From assembly GCF_007678455.1 (NCBI RefSeq), contig NZ_VEEP01000010.1, forward strand, positions 1 to 64,000: a DNA stretch of 64,000 nt, in the 5' to 3' direction. Positions 7,633 through 63,249 of the stretch are shown one piece after another. Each line of letters opens with the position of its first letter. The stretch's first letter is position 1. The stretch comes from Cytobacillus oceanisediminis 2691. GTDB lineage: Bacteria; Bacillota; Bacilli; Bacillales; Cytobacillaceae. The notes under the pieces were generated by a model. That model saw nothing but the letters and a program-made list of their open reading frames with translations, searched no databases and was not told where the DNA came from. Made by a program: the position numbers and the translations under genes.

Positions 7633-7643
7633 AGAAAAGGAAA

Positions 7644-7720
7644 TGGGGACGGTTCTCCCGTCCCCAAGGTTATATTTTATTCTTCTGTCGGGACACCAGA
7701 ACCGTCCCCGTGTCCCATCC
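7644..7720. repeat. GGGACGGTTCT-type inverted repeat element
   Basis: Imperfect inverted repeat of about 75 bp: GGGGACGGTTCT at the left end and AGAACCGTCCCC near the right end, with a GGGACACC segment between. Sits right after the dehydratase stop. Related copies occur at about 39675 and 40758, with partial copies at 14122 and 49500. Confidence 0.75.
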
Positions 7721-7730
7721 TTTTCTACTC

Positions 7731-8339
7731 TTACCTCTCGTGTCCCAGGTACCACTGCGCCGCAGCTTCGACTTCCTCACGGGTCAACTGATGGCCTCTA
7801 TTCTCCCAATGGAGTTTCACATCAGCACCAGCTTTCTCAAGCAGGGATTTAAGTTGTTCAGATTCCATCGGTGAGCAGATTGGATCATTCGTTCCTGCCG
7901 CAATGAATACCGGAGTTCCTGTCAGGTCAGGCAGTTCAATACCTCTTCTCGGCACCATTGGGTGATGAAGGATGGCTCCCTTCAAGGCATTTTCATAGTG
8001 GAACAGCAGGCTTGCCGCGATATTCGCTCCGTTTGAATAACCGACGGCAATCACATTGTTACGGTCAAAGTCGTATTTTTCAGCTGCTTCATCAAGGAAT
8101 TCATTCAATTCTTTTGTCCGGAAAATTAAATCCTCTTCGTCAAACACACCTTCTGCCAGCCTTTTGAAAAATCTTGGCATTCCGTTTTCCAATACGTTCC
8201 CGCGGACACTTAAGACAGAAGCTTCATCATCAATCATTCCAGCTAGAGGCAGCAGGTCCAATTCATTGCCTCCTGTGCCGTGAAGCATTAATAATGTTGG
8301 TTTTGTTGATACCTTACCCTTGTTGAATATATGTTTCAT
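7731..8339 (-). CDS. mhqD: MhqD-like alpha/beta hydrolase (carboxylesterase)
   Basis: 202 residues. Alpha/beta hydrolase with LMLHGTGGNELDL (oxyanion region), the nucleophile elbow VAVGYSNGAN (Ser about residue 100), and a late GTNDPICSP Asp and NRGHQLT His completing the triad. Matches the phospholipase/carboxylesterase family of B. subtilis MhqD (YodD), induced by quinones under MhqR. Its ATG overlaps the stop of the upstream dioxygenase by 4 bp (ATGA), so they are translationally coupled. Last gene of the electrophile-response operon that starts at the MarR gene or at the operator before doxX. Exact substrate unknown. Confidence 0.85.
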   Translation of the reverse strand: MKHIFNKGKVSTKPTLLMLHGTGGNELDLLPLAGMIDDEASVLSVRGNVLENGMPRFFKRLAEGVFDEEDLIFRTKELNEFLDEAAEKYDFDRNNVIAVGYSNGANIAASLLFHYENALKGAILHHPMVPRRGIELPDLTGTPVFIAAGTNDPICSPMESEQLKSLLEKAGADVKLHWENRGHQLTREEVEAAAQWYLGHER

Positions 8340-11290: not shown

Positions 11291-11312
11291 TTATATAATC
11301 CTCCTGAATTTT

Positions 11313-11845: not shown

Positions 11846-12373
11846 TTAAGCTGCAGGGTTTACTTCTAATTCAACTTTGATTTTGATGTCTTTTCCCACC
11901 AAGACGCCGCCTGTCTCAAGTGCTGCATTCCATGTCAGACCAAATTCTTCACGGTTGATTTTTGTTTCTGCTTCAAAGCCATAAACTTCTACGCCCCATG
12001 GGTTTGTGCCTTTGCCGCCGAATTCCACATCGAATGTGACTGGTTTCGTTACATCCTTGATTGTCAAGTCACCCGTTACTTTGTAGTCATCGCCGTCTCT
12101 TGTAATGCTTGTAGATTTGAAATCAATGGTTGGATACTTCTCAACATCAAAGAAGTCAGCTGATTTCAAGTGATTTTCACGATCTTCATTACGAGTGTCA
12201 ATGCTAGCTACATCAATTTTGAATGCAATTGAAGCAGTTGTTAAATCTGTAAGATCCGCTGCCTCAACATCTGCAGTATAAGAATCGAAATGACCCTTCA
12301 CCTTTGATACCATCATGTGTTTCACTTCAAATCCAATTGCTGAGTGTGCCTGATCGACTGTCCATTTTGCCAT
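11846..12373 (-). CDS. YceI family lipid-binding-like protein (copy 1)
   Basis: 175 residues. YceI fold: KWTVDQAHSAIGFEVKHMMVSKVKG, VASIDTRNEDRENHLKSADFFDVEKYPTIDFKS-type core, and DLTIKDVTKPVTFDVEF. Proteins of this family form a lipocalin-like barrel that binds isoprenoid quinones or similar chains. No signal peptide, so cytoplasmic. Near-identical to the copy at 62722 (a few substitutions). Its leader carries a perfect MhqR palindrome and a second half-site pair, so expression should be derepressed by quinones, which fits a quinone-chain ligand. Confidence 0.92.
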   Translation of the reverse strand: MAKWTVDQAHSAIGFEVKHMMVSKVKGHFDSYTADVEAADLTDLTTASIAFKIDVASIDTRNEDRENHLKSADFFDVEKYPTIDFKSTSITRDGDDYKVTGDLTIKDVTKPVTFDVEFGGKGTNPWGVEVYGFEAETKINREEFGLTWNAALETGGVLVGKDIKIKVELEVNPAA

Positions 12374-24154: not shown

Positions 24155-24890
24155 GTTAATCAAGCGTCATTATTTTGACAGGTTCGGCGGTTGAAGCCGA
24201 TAAGCTGTCAAGAAAGCATCGGTATTTTGACAGGTCCGAGGGTTGAAGCCGAAAAGTTGTCAAGATAGCATCGTTTTTTGGACAGGTCCGAGGACAGAAG
24301 CCGATAAGCTGTCAAGAAAGCATCGTTTTTTGGACAGGTCCGAGGGCAGAAGCCGAAAAGTTGTCAAGATAGCATCGTTTTTTTGACAGGTTCGGGGGTT
24401 GAAGCCGATAAGCTGTCAAGAAAGCATCGTTTTTTTGACAGGTTCTGGAGTTGAAGCCGATAAGCTGTCAAGAAAGCATCGTTTTTTAGACAGGTCCGAG
24501 GGCAGAAGCCGAAAAGTTGTCAAGAATACATCGTTATTTTGACAGGTTCGGGGGTTGAAGCCGAAAAGTTGTCAAGATAGCATTGTTATTTTGACAGGTT
24601 CGGGGGTTGAAGCCGAAAAGTTGTCAAGAATACATCGTTATTTTGACAGGTTCTGGGGCAGAAGCTGATAAGCTGTCAAGATAGCATCGGTATTTTGACA
24701 GGTTCGGGGGTTGAAGCCGAAAAGTTGTCAAGAATACATAGTTATTTTGACAGGTTCTGGGGCAGAAGCTGATAAGCTGTCAAGAAAGCATCATTTTTTT
24801 GACAGGTTCAGGGGTTGAAGCCGATAAGTTGTCAAGAAAGCATCGGTATTTTGACAGGTTCGGGGGTTGAAGCCAAAAAGCTATCAATCA
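24155..24890 (-). repeat. 52-bp tandem hairpin array A (14 units)
   Basis: Fourteen units counted by their (T)GACAG element: TTGACA starts at 24175, 24227 and so on to 24851, i.e. 13 intervals totalling 676 bp, exactly 52 each. Each unit holds an inverted repeat CTGTCAA...TTGACAG (left arm alternates GCTGTCAA/GTTGTCAA) with a 15-nt loop such as GAAAGCATCG, then a linker like TTCGGGGGTTGAAGCCGA. Relative to arrays B, C and D it is in the opposite orientation. Between the hydrolase start and the symporter terminator. Not a CRISPR: arms and linkers are both conserved, no unique spacers, no cas genes. Confidence 0.95.
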
Positions 24891-26411: not shown

Positions 26412-26568
26412 GTGTTTTCCTCTCAACACGCCTACGAGGTTAGCTGTCGGGTTCGGGTTTTGAGAGTACCCTACCTGTTAAGGATTCACCCCAATTACTA
26501 AAAAAAGTAACAATTGGTTCCCCCGCTCAAAGGATTAAGCGATTATGTATTATTTTTTTAATATAATA
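26412..26568 (-). promoter_or_regulatory. Cyclic di-AMP (ydaO-yuaA) riboswitch with promoter, symporter leader
   Basis: On the minus strand the conserved ydaO blocks occur in order: CGCTTAATCC, GAGCGGGGGAACCAA, GGGGTGAATCC, GGGTACTCTC, CCCGACAGCTAACCTCGTAG. A TG-A-TATTAT extended -10 lies at 26563-26568, just upstream. In this class c-di-AMP binding favours the terminator, shutting off downstream transport. Confidence 0.93.
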
Positions 26569-39551: not shown

Positions 39552-39674
39552 TAAATCACTCCTTTGAATGGTTGGATATATTAGATGGTTTTTAAAACCT
39601 GTAAGAGCAGAAGTATAAAGAATTTCTTACTAACACTTACGTTTTAAACAACAAAATGTTTCAACATAACACAA

Positions 39675-39748
39675 AAGGACGGTTCACCCGTCCCATAAAG
39701 TTTTTATATTCCTTTTCCAGGACACCAGAACCGACCCCAAGTCCCACC
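39675..39748. repeat. GGGACGGTTCT-type repeat element
   Basis: AAAGGACGGTTCACCCGTCCC at the left; GGACACCAGAACCGACCCC and AGTCCCACC at the right, as in the element at 7644. Lies between two small membrane-protein genes. Confidence 0.7.
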
Positions 39749-39751
39749 TTT

Positions 39752-39931
39752 TTATCCATTTAAATAAAGATATATAATCAGAAAGATGATCAATCCAATC
39801 ATGAAAACTGAACCAAGACTTGCACTAAACACGACATAGACCTTTGTGTGGAGTATGACATGAACAATTAAAACTATAAGCAAACCTAGAAGCAAATAGA
39901 TGGCTAATTGCAAATTCTTATTCCTATTCAA
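39752..39931 (-). CDS. 59-aa two-helix membrane protein
   Basis: TTG start after AAGGTGCTGATCG. NRNKNLQLAIYLLLGLLIVL then HVILHTKVYVVF and a second helix SLGSVFMIGLIIFLIIYLY ending NG. Membrane-protein composition and correct topology; the binding site is moderate. No family recognised. Confidence 0.5.
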   Translation of the reverse strand: MNRNKNLQLAIYLLLGLLIVLIVHVILHTKVYVVFSASLGSVFMIGLIIFLIIYLYLNG

Positions 39932-40069
39932 ACGATCAGCACCTTATAGTTCCAATTTATCGAAAAGCAGTAGTTGTCCATATTCTTTATATATTTGATC
40001 GTGGCAAATTTTATACCAATCACGCCAAAAAAGAAAAGGACGGTTATCCCGCCCCCTCTAAATTACTTC

Positions 40070-40660: not shown

Positions 40661-40757
40661 GTGATCACTCCTTTTTTTGTTTGCTTCCATTTTACGCGGT
40701 TTCCGAAGAGAATACTATTTGTTTTTTTTTTGAAAAACTTACCCTTAAAAAACAAAA

Positions 40758-40842
40758 AGGGACGGTTCTCCCATCCCCTCAAAACACATGTTCACTCCTG
40801 TTCTCCGGGACACCAGAATCCTCACGAAGTCCATCCCGTGCC
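40758..40842. repeat. GGGACGGTTCT-type repeat element (degraded)
   Basis: GGGACGGTTCTCCCATCCCC at the left and GGGACACCAGAATCCTCACG with ATCCCGTGCC at the right, matching the element at 7644 with several changes. Right next to the stop of the sigma/anti-sigma gene. Confidence 0.65.
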
Positions 40843-48223: not shown

Positions 48224-48235
48224 CCATAAGACCCT

Positions 48236-48378
48236 TCTCCCAACCGCGCTTACGGAGTTAGCTGTCGGATTAGGGATTGAGAGCATCCCCTTTTAGCTGC
48301 ACACGCTAAAATTCACCCCAAGATAAAATCAATTTATCCAAAAATGGTTCCCCCGCTCATAGGATTCAGCAAAAAGGT
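48236..48378 (-). promoter_or_regulatory. Cyclic di-AMP (ydaO-yuaA) riboswitch, K+ uptake leader
   Basis: Minus-strand blocks in order: GCTGAATCCTATGAGCGGGG-type start, GGGGGAACCATT, TTGGGGTGAATTT, GGGGATGCTCTC, and the end TCCGACAGCTAACTCCGTAA with GCGCGGTT. A TTTTAGC/GCTAAAA variable hairpin lies in the middle. High c-di-AMP would terminate transcription of the channel gene. Confidence 0.95.
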
Positions 48379-48502
48379 TTGTTATTAAAATGAATACATT
48401 TAAATTACTCCTATATCATTTTGGTGTCAATGCCCATTTTACAGTTTAGCCCAGATTGGAGGCGATAGGACAGTTCTTCCGTCTAACTTAGGCAAGATAC
48501 GA

Positions 48503-48829: not shown

Positions 48830-49465
48830 CCTGATTAATCCCAGGACTATTTTTGACAGCTATTACTCTTAGCACCCCAAACCTGTCTAAATCCAGAGCT
48901 TTTCTTGACAGCTTTTACCCTTCCACCTTCAAACCTGTCTAAATCACGCGCTTTTTTTGACAGCTTTTCCGCCTTCAGCATCAAACCTGTCTAAATCCAG
49001 AGCTTTTTTTGACAGCTTTTCCTCTTAGCACCCCAAACCTGTCTAAATCAAGAGCTTTTCTTGACAGCTTTTTCCCTTTCACCATCAAACCTGTCTAAAT
49101 CACGCGCTTTTCTTGACAGCTTTTCCGCCTTCAGCATCAAACCTGTCTAAATCAAGAGCTTTTTTTGACAGCTTTTCCTCTTAGCACCCCAAACCTGTCT
49201 AAATCACGAGCTTTTTTTGACAGCTTTTCCTCCTCCACCCTCAAACCTGTCTAAATCACGGGCTTATTTTGACAGCTTTTCCGCCTTCAGCATCAAACCT
49301 GTCTAAATCACGGGAGTTTTTTGACAGCTTTTCCCCTTCCACCCTCAAACCTGTCTAAATCACGCGCTTTTCTTGACAGCTTTTCCCCTTCCACCCTCAA
49401 ACCTGTCTAAATCACGGGCTTATTCTGACAACATTTCCTCAAAACACCGCAAACTTGTCTGAATC
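48830..49465 (+). repeat. 52-bp tandem hairpin array B (12 units)
   Basis: TTGACA/CTGACA elements at 48853, 48905, 48957 and on to 49425: 11 intervals of exactly 52 bp. Unit: AAACCTGTCTAAATC-N8-TTTTCTTGACAGCTTTTCC plus a linker that falls into three recurring types (TTAGCACCCC, TTCAGCATC, CCACCCTC). Here the base next to CTGTC is T, giving a T-T mismatch in the stem. The outer units (48830 and 49451) are degenerate. Between the spore protein terminator and the cupin gene. Confidence 0.95.
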
Positions 49466-54359: not shown

Positions 54360-55100
54360 CCGAAAAATTACGGGCTTTTCTTGACAGCTTTTCCTCCTTA
54401 CACCGCTATCCTGTCAAAATCACGACCTTTTCTTGACAGCTTTTCCTCCTAACACTGCTAACCTGTCAAAATCCTGACCTTTTCTTGACAGCTTTTCCTC
54501 CTAACAACGCTAACCTGTCAAAATCACGACCTTTTCTTGACAGCTTTTCCTCCTAACACCGCTAACCTGTCAATATCCAGACCTTTTCTTGACAGCTTTT
54601 CCTCTTAACACTGCTAACCTGTCAATATCCAGGCCTTTTCTTGACAGCTTTTCCTCCTAACACTGCAAACCTGTCAAAATCACGACCTTTTCTTGACAGC
54701 TTTTCCTCCTAACACCGCTAACCTGTCAATATCCAGGCCTTTTCTTGACAGCTTTTCCTCCTAACACCGCCAATCTGTCATAATCCAGGCCTTTTCTTGA
54801 CAGCTTTTCCTCCTAACACCGCTAACCTGTCAAAATTACGAGCGTTTCTTGACAGCTTTTCCTCCTTACACCGCTAACCTGTCAAAATCACGACCTTTTC
54901 TTGACAGCTTTTCCTCCTTACACCGCTAACCTGTCAAAATTACGAGCGTTTCTTGACAGCTTTTCCTCTTAACACTGCTAACCTGTCAAAATCCAGACCT
55001 TTTCTTGACAGCTTTTCTTCCTAACAACGCTAACCTGTCAAAATCCAGACCTTTTCTTGACAGCTTTTCCTCCTTCACCATCAAACCTGTCAAAATCCAA
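54360..55100 (+). repeat. 52-bp tandem hairpin array C (14 units)
   Basis: TTGACAG elements at 54381, 54433, 54485 and on to 55057: 13 intervals of exactly 52 bp. Unit: TAACCTGTCAAAATC-N7-TTTTCTTGACAGCTTTTCC plus TCCTAACACCGC linker. Stem CTGTCAA/TTGACAG. The most homogeneous of the four arrays. Lies between potA and the thioesterase gene terminator. Confidence 0.96.
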
Positions 55101-60960: not shown

Positions 60961-62175
60961 CTAAAGTATATCGATGTCTCGATTTTGAGCTTCGATCTCC
61001 ACACTCAATTTCTTCCTTAGCATCGAAATGGAAATTGGCGTAATGATCGTCATGACACCAATCGTCGTGAATGCAATCCCCCAATTAAAATAATCGAGCA
61101 GGATCCCAAAAATCATCGGTGAAAAAATCGTTGCGCTAAAACCCATAACAGATTGGATTCCCAGTGCGATTCCTGTGATTTCCGGATCGGATACTTCTGT
61201 AATCATCGTGTTATAGATTGGGGAATCGGCGATGATGGTAAATCCATAGACGAAAACAAGCGGAAGCAAAATCCACATGCTTGCGGGTGTCAGCCAGCCA
61301 ATCGACAGCGAACAGGCGATGCTGATATAGATGAACAATTTGATCGATTTTAACCGGCCAAACGAATCAGACATCCTGCCCCCAATGAAACTGGCAACCC
61401 CGCCAATCATCACCACAAACGCTCCAATAAAATTGCCAACCGAAATCGCATTCGCGACACTATGGGTCTGGAAGTAATACACCATAAAAGGCCCAATCCA
61501 CGCCCACATCGCATAAAGCTCCCAGCAGTGCCCCGTGTAACTGATATTCACTAGCAAATTTCTTCTGGTCAAGACCCGTTTTAACAGCGTCATACTCAAA
61601 CGCTGATTATGAATATGGATATTTTCCGGAATCCTTGAAAAGTAAATAAGCGAAGCAGCAAGGATTGCAGAACATGAAGTAATGAAAATAACACCCTTCC
61701 ACCCCACCAAGTTAATGAACAAACCAGAAACCAGCAGGGAAAATCCCGAGCCGACCACAAGCGAGCCAACAAAAAGTCCCAGGGCCGCCCCACGCGCCCG
61801 GTCGCTCGAAGTCTGCGCGACAATCTTCATTCCCGGCACATAAATCCCCGCAATCCCTACCCCCGAAATAAATCGCAACAATAAAGCCGACCAAAACCCT
61901 TGCGCCAAAACGCTAAAAAGAATACCCGATAGCCCAGCGATCAGAGCTCCATACATAAACGAGTACTTCGGATTATAACGATCACTCAAGAAGCTGTAAA
62001 AAAACACCGCCGCCACATAGCCAATATGAAAAAAACCAACGATTATTCCCGATTGCGTCGAGGACAACCCCCACTCCCTCTCCACAACCGGCATCACCGC
62101 AGAAAAATTAAACCACACCTGCATTGCCAGAAATTGAGCAAACGATAAAGTCCATAACAAACGAGTCAAACCCAT
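60961..62175 (-). CDS. MFS transporter
   Basis: 404 residues, 12 helices, ATG after GAGAGGCGGTG. MFS motif A-like FFYSFLSDRYNPKYSFMYG (loop 2-3) and its second copy IGGRMSDSFGRLKSIKLF (loop 8-9); WSALLLRFISGVGIAGIYVPG marks helix 4. Substrate unknown (closest style: drug/nitrate-type CynX-like). Lies upstream of array D. Confidence 0.88.
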   Translation of the reverse strand: MGLTRLLWTLSFAQFLAMQVWFNFSAVMPVVEREWGLSSTQSGIIVGFFHIGYVAAVFFYSFLSDRYNPKYSFMYGALIAGLSGILFSVLAQGFWSALLLRFISGVGIAGIYVPGMKIVAQTSSDRARGAALGLFVGSLVVGSGFSLLVSGLFINLVGWKGVIFITSCSAILAASLIYFSRIPENIHIHNQRLSMTLLKRVLTRRNLLVNISYTGHCWELYAMWAWIGPFMVYYFQTHSVANAISVGNFIGAFVVMIGGVASFIGGRMSDSFGRLKSIKLFIYISIACSLSIGWLTPASMWILLPLVFVYGFTIIADSPIYNTMITEVSDPEITGIALGIQSVMGFSATIFSPMIFGILLDYFNWGIAFTTIGVMTIITPISISMLRKKLSVEIEAQNRDIDIL

Positions 62176-62257
62176 CACCGCCTCTCTCTTTTAACATTAA
62201 AATACCGAATTTTCGGAATTTTAACAAGGTGAGTTTTTCCTAGGGCAGTTACCCATC

Positions 62258-62640
62258 AAACCTGTCCGAACTCCCACTTACTTCGGACAGCTTTTCTGCA
62301 TTTCCCGCTAAACCTGTCCGAACTCCAGCTTACTTCGGACAGCTTTTCTTCGTTTCGCACTAAACCTGTCCGAACTTGGACTTACTTCGGACAGCTTTTC
62401 TGCATTTCCCGTTAAACCTGTCCGAACTTCGACTTACTTCGGACAGCTTTTCTGCATTTCCCGCTAAACCTGTCCGAACTCCGACTTACTTCGGACAGCT
62501 TTTCTCCGTTTTCCACTAAAGTTGTCCGAACTTGGACTTACTTCGGACAGCTTTTCACCTCCAGCACCCAAACCTGTCAAAATTACCTCACTTTCTTGAC
62601 AACTTTTCACCTCCAACACCCAAACCTGTCAAGATCCCCT
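62258..62640 (+). repeat. 52-bp tandem hairpin array D (7 units, covarying stem)
   Basis: GACAG/GACAA elements at 62286, 62338, 62390, 62442, 62494, 62546 and 62598: exactly 52 bp each. In the first six the stem is CTGTCCGAA / TTCGGACAG instead of CTGTCAA / TTGACAG; flanking AAAC/CTTT also pairs, with one C-C mismatch kept. The seventh unit reverts to the TTGACA type. Between the MFS gene and yceI copy 2. Confidence 0.95.
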
Positions 62641-62680
62641 CGATATCCTCCCACCAACCACAATCCAAAGCAAACCAAAA

Positions 62681-62710
62681 AAACCGTTCAGAGTATCTCC
62701 TGAACGGTTT
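62681..62710 (-). terminator. Intrinsic terminator of yceI copy 2
   Basis: AAACCGTTCAG / CTGAACGGTTT, 8-nt loop, then TTTTTT on the minus strand. Confidence 0.93.
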
Positions 62711-62721
62711 CCAAATCGAAA

Positions 62722-63249
62722 TTATGCTGCTGGGTTTACTTCTAGTTCTACTTTGATCTTGATGTCTTTACCAACCAGAACGCCGCCTGTTTCTAGTGCT
62801 GCATTCCATGTAAGACCGAAGTCTTCACGGTTTACCTTTGCTTCTGCTTCGAAGCCGTATACTTCGACGCCCCATGGGTTTGTGCCTTTGCCGCCGTATT
62901 CGACATCGAATGTGACTGGCTTTGTTACGTCTTTGATTGTCAGGTCGCCAGTTACTTTGTAATCGTCGCCATCGCGAGTGATGTTTGTTGATTTGAAATC
63001 AATTGTTGGGTAGTTTTCAACATCAAAGAAGTCTGCTGATTTCAGGTGGTTCTCGCGGTCCTCGCTGCGTGTGTCGATGCTTGCAACATCGATTTTGAAT
63101 GTGATTGAAGCTGTTGTTAAATCTGCCAGGTCTGCTGCCTCAACATCAGCTGTATAAGAGCCGAATTGTCCTTTTACTTTTGATACCATCATGTGTTTTA
63201 CTTCAAATCCGATTGCTGAGTGCGCCTGGTCTACTACAAATTTAGCCAT
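62722..63249 (-). CDS. YceI family lipid-binding-like protein (copy 2)
   Basis: 175 residues, same length as the copy at 11846 and differing at only a few places (for example KFVVDQAH for KWTVDQAH, GQFGSYT for GHFDSYT). Same lipocalin-like YceI fold and same operator layout. Cytoplasmic. Duplication with a shared regulator suggests dosage or a slightly different ligand; not determinable here. Confidence 0.92.
   Translation of the reverse strand: MAKFVVDQAHSAIGFEVKHMMVSKVKGQFGSYTADVEAADLADLTTASITFKIDVASIDTRSEDRENHLKSADFFDVENYPTIDFKSTNITRDGDDYKVTGDLTIKDVTKPVTFDVEYGGKGTNPWGVEVYGFEAEAKVNREDFGLTWNAALETGGVLVGKDIKIKVELEVNPAA

Follow-up and report, generated by a model that had tools for sequence, protein, structure and literature searches.

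Replication-oriented 52-bp tandem repeats around array D of Cytobacillus oceanisediminis 2691 as candidate double-stranded dyads for a DNA-binding protein

A window of 64,000 nucleotides from Cytobacillus oceanisediminis 2691, the whole stretch of DNA analysed here, contains the tandem repeat arrays A to D. Array D (62258-62640, + strand) raises the question of what is conserved in such repeats. The original prediction answered that the hairpin is, and that pairing, or the palindrome, matters rather than the sequence alone. The array is composed of seven 52-bp units, which start at 62258, 62310, 62362, 62414, 62466, 62518, and 62570, followed by a truncated eighth unit with the left half only (62622-62640, + strand). 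Units 1 to 6 (62258-62569, + strand) have the arms CTGTCCGAA/TTCGGACAG and belong to class II, with the half-sites TGTCCGAA .. TTCGGACA. Unit 6 (62518-62569, + strand) is a hybrid, in which a class II stem is joined to a class I linker. Unit 7 (62570-62621, + strand) belongs to class I, with the half-sites TGTCAA .. TTGACA and the arms CTGTCAA/TTGACA. All nine arm positions are matched in units 1 to 5. Eight of nine are matched in unit 6, where the outermost position is T.G (left arm TTGTC), and seven of nine in unit 7 (CTGTCAAAA/TCTTGACAA), where the outermost pair is broken (C.A). Tandem Repeats Finder scored array D at 362-535 and assigned a period of 52 and 5.8-14.1 copies to arrays A-D. 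The left neighbour of array D is a MFS transporter gene (60961-62178, - strand) and the right neighbour is a gene for a YceI-domain protein (62722-63249, - strand). A terminator-like hairpin 3' of the YceI gene (62679-62712, - strand) lies between this gene and the array. The YceI-like paralogues at 11846-12373 and 62722-63249 are 85% alike over 300 bases. The palindromic stretch ATCTCGAATTCGAGAT occurs three times, at 11309, 12396, and 63270, with two copies immediately upstream of YceI-like genes, and it is possibly their shared operator.

Arrays A (24162-24887, - strand) and C (54364-55097, + strand) are of class I, each with 13 units by script. Array B (48850-49440, + strand) has 11 units by script, with CTGTCTA .. 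TTGACAG. The described arm usage was right for array D, where six units share one pair of arms and the seventh differs. The statement that the other arrays use CTGTCAA/TTGACAG holds for array C and most of array A. It fails for array B, in which CTGTCTA/TTGACAG gives a T.T first inner pair in all 11 units found. In array A, the first inner pair is T.T or C.T in 3 of 13 units and the outermost pair is broken in 7 of 13. The window genome contains 93 + 87 exact single units, and 74 + 70 = 144 matches of a two-unit pattern against 0 in the reversed control. Together with the Tandem Repeats Finder scores of array D, these counts show that the repeat is no chance pattern. The window genome holds classes I and II and differing linkers, so that several sequence families are present in one genome. 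Two c-di-AMP riboswitches on the - strand (26415-26551 and 48232-48381) have arrays A and B nearby, and the first precedes a sodium:dicarboxylate symporter gene. A dispersed palindromic repeat of the GGGACGGTTCTCCCGTCCC type with CGGGACACCAGAACCGTCCCC was also seen at 7635-7733, 39665-39762, 40026-40056, and 40748-40832, and it stands apart from the 52-bp arrays.

Each 52-bp unit is made of a 27-bp dyad, with two inverted 10-bp half-sites and a 7-bp spacer, and of a linker rich in purines on the leading strand. The half-site consists of TGTC and six class-specific bases. The dyad recurs every 51-53 bp, which is about five helical turns. In a mainly Mesobacillus set, the inner gap was 19 in 923 of 977 units, with 16-22 permitted at a score penalty of 1 per base, and the unit spacing was 52 in 796 of 871 steps over 106 arrays. 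The middle of the inner gap is free in sequence. Arms are matched across N1-N6 and unmatched at N7-N13, which leaves 10-bp half-sites around 7 bp. The C.C position outside the arms is usually kept, as had been noticed in array D: with weighting per array, the left side has C in 90% and the right side in 96% of 915 units from 106 arrays. This set is nearly all Mesobacillus; four of its arrays come from other genera, and some loci entered it twice, each time under a different name. On the leading strand, the apparent C.C mismatch is a G in both halves. By crude ORF calling, predicted ORFs of at least 240 nt share no more than 40 bases with the array in 95 of 106 cases. The arrays were gathered without L053 (Planctomycetaceae) and L092 (Sphingobium), which are single chance-like matches, without L153 (viral), and without the duplicate window loci L001-L027, L029, L030, and L036. 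For the Mesobacillus consensus set, units scoring below 10 and arrays with fewer than 3 units were dropped, and 100 arrays with 87 distinct consensus sequences were obtained. Four arrays from other genera were present before this filtering.

The core TGTC-N19-GACA, repeated every 51-53 bp, was found in 74 of 397 genomes and 31 of 135 genera of the order, four of the 74 carriers having a single match only. The reversed control matched one place, in the array-rich genome G013. In a class-wide sample, the core was present in 11 of 398 genomes, and outside the order in 4 of 360, three of these in one family. The 19-base gap was preset by the pattern in both the order-wide and class-wide searches. 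Within the genus, two-unit matches of the strict pattern were found in 18 of 20 genomes, and G014, which lacks a strict match, gave 63 matches with a looser core. Most of the 80 loci listed are from Mesobacillus or 'ISL' strains. Thalassobacillus, Robertmurraya, and Bacillus sp. FJAT-29937 have single or double matches among them, and the arrays there have the same layout. A record labelled Chryseobacterium sp. ISL-80 (L065, L069, and other JAGGQZ loci) contains many Mesobacillus-type arrays, and its label is probably wrong. The distribution of the core is patchy, and the array copy number is unstable. A phage or plasmid origin was rejected. No match of array D was found in plasmids or phages, and one isolated viral-contig match, with a 17-base gap, was judged to be chance.

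The joint change of both arms described in array D was confirmed in many genera. Among 40 consensus sequences of arrays from other genera, pairing was present in 87.3% of the cells, and 85 cells were changed on both sides compared with 31.5 in shuffles. The cross-genus covariation score was 0.443, against 0.127 for shuffles and 0.108-0.167 for controls with slid partners. The four TGTC/GACA pairs are fixed by the pattern and hence invariant in this test, and the number of pairs with any two-sided change was 6, which is not above shuffles (5.8). The effect was weaker in the mainly Mesobacillus set, where N1:N19 was paired in 66% of 87 array consensus sequences (46% expected) and N2:N18 in 39% (22% expected). 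Most of the arm covariation lies between classes. Nine genomes from seven families share one identical half-site, CTTCAT, which accounts for 33 of 34 identical cross-family half-site pairs (1.1 expected). Without CTTCAT, the cross-family recurrence is not above chance (identical, 1 vs 0.3; within one mismatch, 7 vs 4.1). The proposal that a few half-sites recur across families therefore holds for CTTCAT only and was dropped for the rest. In this comparison, half-sites with fewer than 4 copies or below 8% of a genome were dropped, and Mesobacillus was represented by 8 loci.

The covariance test across units that accompanied the original prediction was thus strong between genera, but it was not significant within genome and class in the other genera. 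When the right arms were shuffled within genome and class, 1157 pairs were observed and 1150.4 expected (sd 5.5, p 0.13) in 259 oriented units of 44 strata from other genera; 583 pairs are expected without strata. This does not support the claim that the hairpin was proved and that pairing rather than sequence is kept. An unoriented run of 147 units gave 661 pairs with 660 expected. Strata with fewer than 3 distinct units were left out of the within-class tests, and the genomes used here, in the left/right-arm test, and in the cross-family test were those with places listed, a non-random sample. Some excesses were seen. Both runs placed N4:N16 about 2.9 sd higher than expected, and the two-arm changes within strata were 22 vs 14.7, with 15 of them re-paired. 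Mesobacillus class I units pooled over genomes had 1076 pairs vs 1019 expected (sd 14.2), which is a 4-sd excess, and the pooled class II units had a deficit, with 699 pairs vs 727 expected (sd 8.4). Shared descent of the copies or unseen subclasses may explain the class I, N4:N16, and two-arm excesses, and some weak pairing selection may act on the arms. Over 17 genomes, the left arm fitted the right arms of other arrays at 4.09 of 6 positions and its own at 4.40 (p 0.40), with the two-class genomes G195, G210, and G540 as exceptions to this interchangeability. Inverted half-sites that lie near one consensus and deviate independently were found in the other genera, and Mesobacillus class I departs from this behaviour. 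The within-class data fit a dyad with each half-site staying near its class consensus.

The history of array D itself was followed through the MFS gene, by which the orthologous locus can be recognised in 7 more genomes of the genus. This gene is close to full length in 8 of the 21 genomes of the genus, the window genome included; in G011, the match is of 31 bases only. Array D is present at the orthologous place in 8 of the 8 genomes with this neighbour, and the unit number at the locus ranges from 6 to 18. In orthologues with both parts, class II stems with one linker type make up the left part, and class I stems with another linker type the right part. Besides the window strain, G303 (same species) and G013 also have the hybrid unit. 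Since the hybrid unit and the two-part layout are seen in relatives, the junction of array D is older than the species. The suggested junction of two array types thus recurs in relatives, and a joining of two pre-existing unit types describes array D better than a compensatory substitution in situ. Among the places listed, classes are mixed inside single arrays in array D, G029 (C11:142286), and G299 (C6:40071). The first inner pair was lost without repair in the array D orthologues of two relatives: G001 has C.T in 17 of 18 class II units, and G016 has T.T in all 8. This loss, too, gives no support to pairing rather than sequence.

Could the arrays be transcribed as RNA hairpins, with stem-loops selected for pairing and acting as a sponge, a stabiliser, or a terminator series? 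The strong cross-genus covariation and the within-class excess of Mesobacillus class I would agree with this. Also, array D unit 1 folds at -12.2 kcal/mol on one strand and -17.6 kcal/mol on the other (z -4.5 and -4.4, respectively), and z is -1.9 to -3.3 for two class I units. Transcription of such satellites in B. coagulans is reported in PMC8625621. However, an array B unit folds no more stably than shuffled sequences (z -0.8 and -0.2), compensation within genome and class is not significant in the other genera, and the array D orthologues lost the first inner pair unrepaired. The deviations in the 147-unit run were 51 for G.T and 45 for A.C, and no G.T excess was found in the Mesobacillus units in which it was looked for. 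With no G.T excess over A.C, neither array strand behaves as a folded RNA. The terminator-like hairpin of the right-hand gene comes before array D, the replication orientation described below is kept with both neighbours head-on (5/5), and Rfam at gathering thresholds gave no hit to an array, either in the window or among 18 loci from other genera. The RNA hairpin as the conserved thing was demoted on the within-class test, the array D orthologues, and the lack of G.T excess, although the class I excess remains; we consider it improbable. Tandem terminators were rejected, with one weak terminator-like site inside array D and a mean of 0.7 in shuffles of the region.

Orientation was compared with replication by taking dnaA as the origin and the opposite point as the terminus. 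The array strand that is rich in pyrimidines is directed against the fork in 19 of the 21 arrays in G018 and in 14 of the 15 in G015. Therefore, 33 of 36 arrays in these two complete Mesobacillus genomes are replication-oriented, where the G015 orientation comes from 68 of 79 matches and two of the 36 arrays are one exact unit. In G016, 18 of 18 positions have the same polarity, and in G019, among the 87 of 136 matches listed, all 17 positions up to 2.134 Mb are '-' with zero '+'. In G139, from another family, 19 of 20 positions follow replication. The counts were 11 of 15 in G235, where the four exceptions are weakly asymmetric, 2 of 2 in G125, and 5 of 8 in G261. Contig C1 of G125 also has 34 DnaA ATPase domain matches, many of identical score, which are probably copies of an IS helper ATPase. 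When the window was placed on the complete genome G303, arrays B, C, and D obeyed the rule, and A was the sole window array to break it. The polarity is strong in Mesobacillus and one other family and mixed elsewhere. Transcription as the cause of the orientation was ruled out by arrays beside head-on genes, as the rule is obeyed by 15 of 15 arrays with at least one head-on neighbour gene and by 5 of 5 with two. The array strand is antisense to both neighbours in 37 cases and sense to both in 17, as replication-biased genes would give. Ordinary strand skew was rejected as well. The leading-strand GC/AT skew of the arrays is 0.245/0.273 vs 0.089/0.031 in the non-ORF flanks, about 3 (GC) and 9 (AT) times larger, and it is 3 and 4 times that of the ORF flanks. 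The polarity may have a replication-linked mutational cause.

Replication polarity is also expected if the arrays form single-stranded DNA hairpins on the lagging-strand template, which would be acted on by replication slippage, template switching, or a hairpin-specific enzyme. The perfection of the palindrome would then come from template-switch correction and not from selection, and the arrays would be satellites growing in one orientation. The palindromic arms, accompanied by linkers that in 18 of 25 arrays from three further genomes are rich in purines on the lagging template, are in line with this, as are the variable unit number at the array D locus and the coordinated arm changes followed by independent decay. 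Arms other than CTTCAT, moreover, are not common to families above chance. On the other side, CTTCAT itself occurs in seven families, and arrays that otherwise differ have a constant 52-bp unit and the TGTC foot in common, which calls for an additional cause. Carriage of the arrays is not tracked by the hairpin transposase family Y1 (PF01797). This family is present in 14 of the 15 genomes with arrays and in 18 of the 20 without; among the carriers, G288 has none, and G235 and G045 have short weak matches only. We regard single-stranded hairpins as rather unlikely.

The geometry recalls another kind of site. Tyrosine recombinases act on core sites in which a central region of 6-8 bp is flanked by inverted arms of about 10-13 bp. 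If the arrays were cores of such a site-specific recombinase, the inverted 10-bp arms would follow the recombinase and the 7 bp would be the overlap region. The 10-7-10 geometry and the variable central 7 bp resemble these cores, and the array length and composition differ between species. However, the central regions often differ between adjacent units, which would hinder exchange by a recombinase, and the 52-bp phasing and the replication polarity are left unexplained. This explanation is very unlikely.

We therefore favour, with a probability of roughly 0.43, that the arrays are helically phased double-stranded dyads for a putative sequence-specific DNA-binding protein. The fixed lengths with free sequence, the approximately five helical turns per unit, and the near-independent half-sites point to protein-bound double-stranded DNA. 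The geometry, the class-level matching of half-sites, the near-independent drift within classes, and the replication orientation in Mesobacillus and one other family were directly observed. The dyad would be bound by a sequence-specific dimer or pair of subunits, and the binder may be one protein or a set of paralogues differing in specificity. It would be loaded in phase along the array, and its role would be linked to replication or chromosome organisation. Array D would then be a composite of class II and class I units. Several points are against these double-stranded dyads. The mixing of classes within single arrays is awkward if each class has its own protein, and the polarity cannot come from a symmetric dyad alone. 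The patchy distribution, the unstable copy number, the transcription in B. coagulans, and the polarity exceptions of array A and of G235 and G261 also count against them. The recurrence of half-sites rests on one class, and class I has a pairing excess; both weaken the double-stranded reading and strengthen the single-stranded DNA and RNA alternatives. The search for a partner protein covered one family, the Y1 transposase, and gave no partner; Y1/RAYT was rejected in this role, as it has no association with array carriage. It is a broader and doubtful step to propose an order-wide, so far unrecognised chromosome system, in which a putative DNA-binding family with few interchangeable specificities would read tandem, helically phased dyads directed by the fork. 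If this is true, the 52-nt satellites would be a polar landmark on bacterial chromosomes.

Tandem repeats of 52 nt, constant in length and variable in sequence, were reported in about 30% of the Bacillus species studied (Subirana and Messeguer 2021, PMC8161180). The carriers include B. selenatarsenatis, B. boroniphilus, and B. subterraneus, whose records are now titled Mesobacillus. The present arrays resemble them in being 51-53 nt long, numerous in each genome, species-specific in sequence, and non-coding, and they belong to this published kind. In the same paper, AAAGCTGTC is listed as a signal in B. alkalitelluris, and short signals are often accompanied by their own reverse within one repeat. 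The repeats were described as having no sequence conservation between species, and a protein polymerising on the repeat DNA, or small RNAs, was proposed. In contrast to that description, the present arrays share TGTC-N19-GACA, the 10-7-10 dyad, half-site classes, and replication polarity. The protein-on-DNA reading is close to the published proposal, and the dyad, the classes, and the polarity are added to it. In 27 published consensus repeats, the core is exact in 5 and within one mismatch in 7, and the 10-7-10 dyad is present in 15 at a shuffle p <0.05. As a rule for all published 52-nt families, this dyad was rejected, because the longest inverted repeats in the 21 examined have loops of 3 to 19; it is claimed for core-bearing families only. 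The core, the dyad geometry, and the polarity are not stated in the main text or tables of PMC8161180 or in the available part of PMC8625621. The literature search gave no other paper on them; the 2020 J. Bacteriol. paper of the same authors lay outside its scope and may note the core or polarity.

STAR elements of Staphylococcus (PMC3532100) are likewise intergenic repeats of about 50 nt with variable copy number. Their motif is a 14-bp GC-rich direct one, whereas the present core is a pair of inverted half-sites. Until now, 52-nt satellites were known by their length, without a shared sequence and with only general suggestions of function. The core, the dyad, and the replication orientation together allow specific predictions on a bound protein or a replication-linked process. 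Two further systems are worth comparing. REP/BIME elements are intergenic palindromes with a constant foot, found with RAYT (Y1) transposases. The present repeats are also intergenic palindromes with a constant foot, but they are tandem arrays phased at 52 bp, replication-polar, and without Y1 association. KOPS/SRS are short dispersed octamers, replication-oriented and purine-rich on the leading strand, which are read by FtsK/SpoIIIE. The arrays described here share with them an orientation fixed by replication and the purine-rich leading strand. In place of dispersed octamers, however, they consist of tandem 27-bp dyads.
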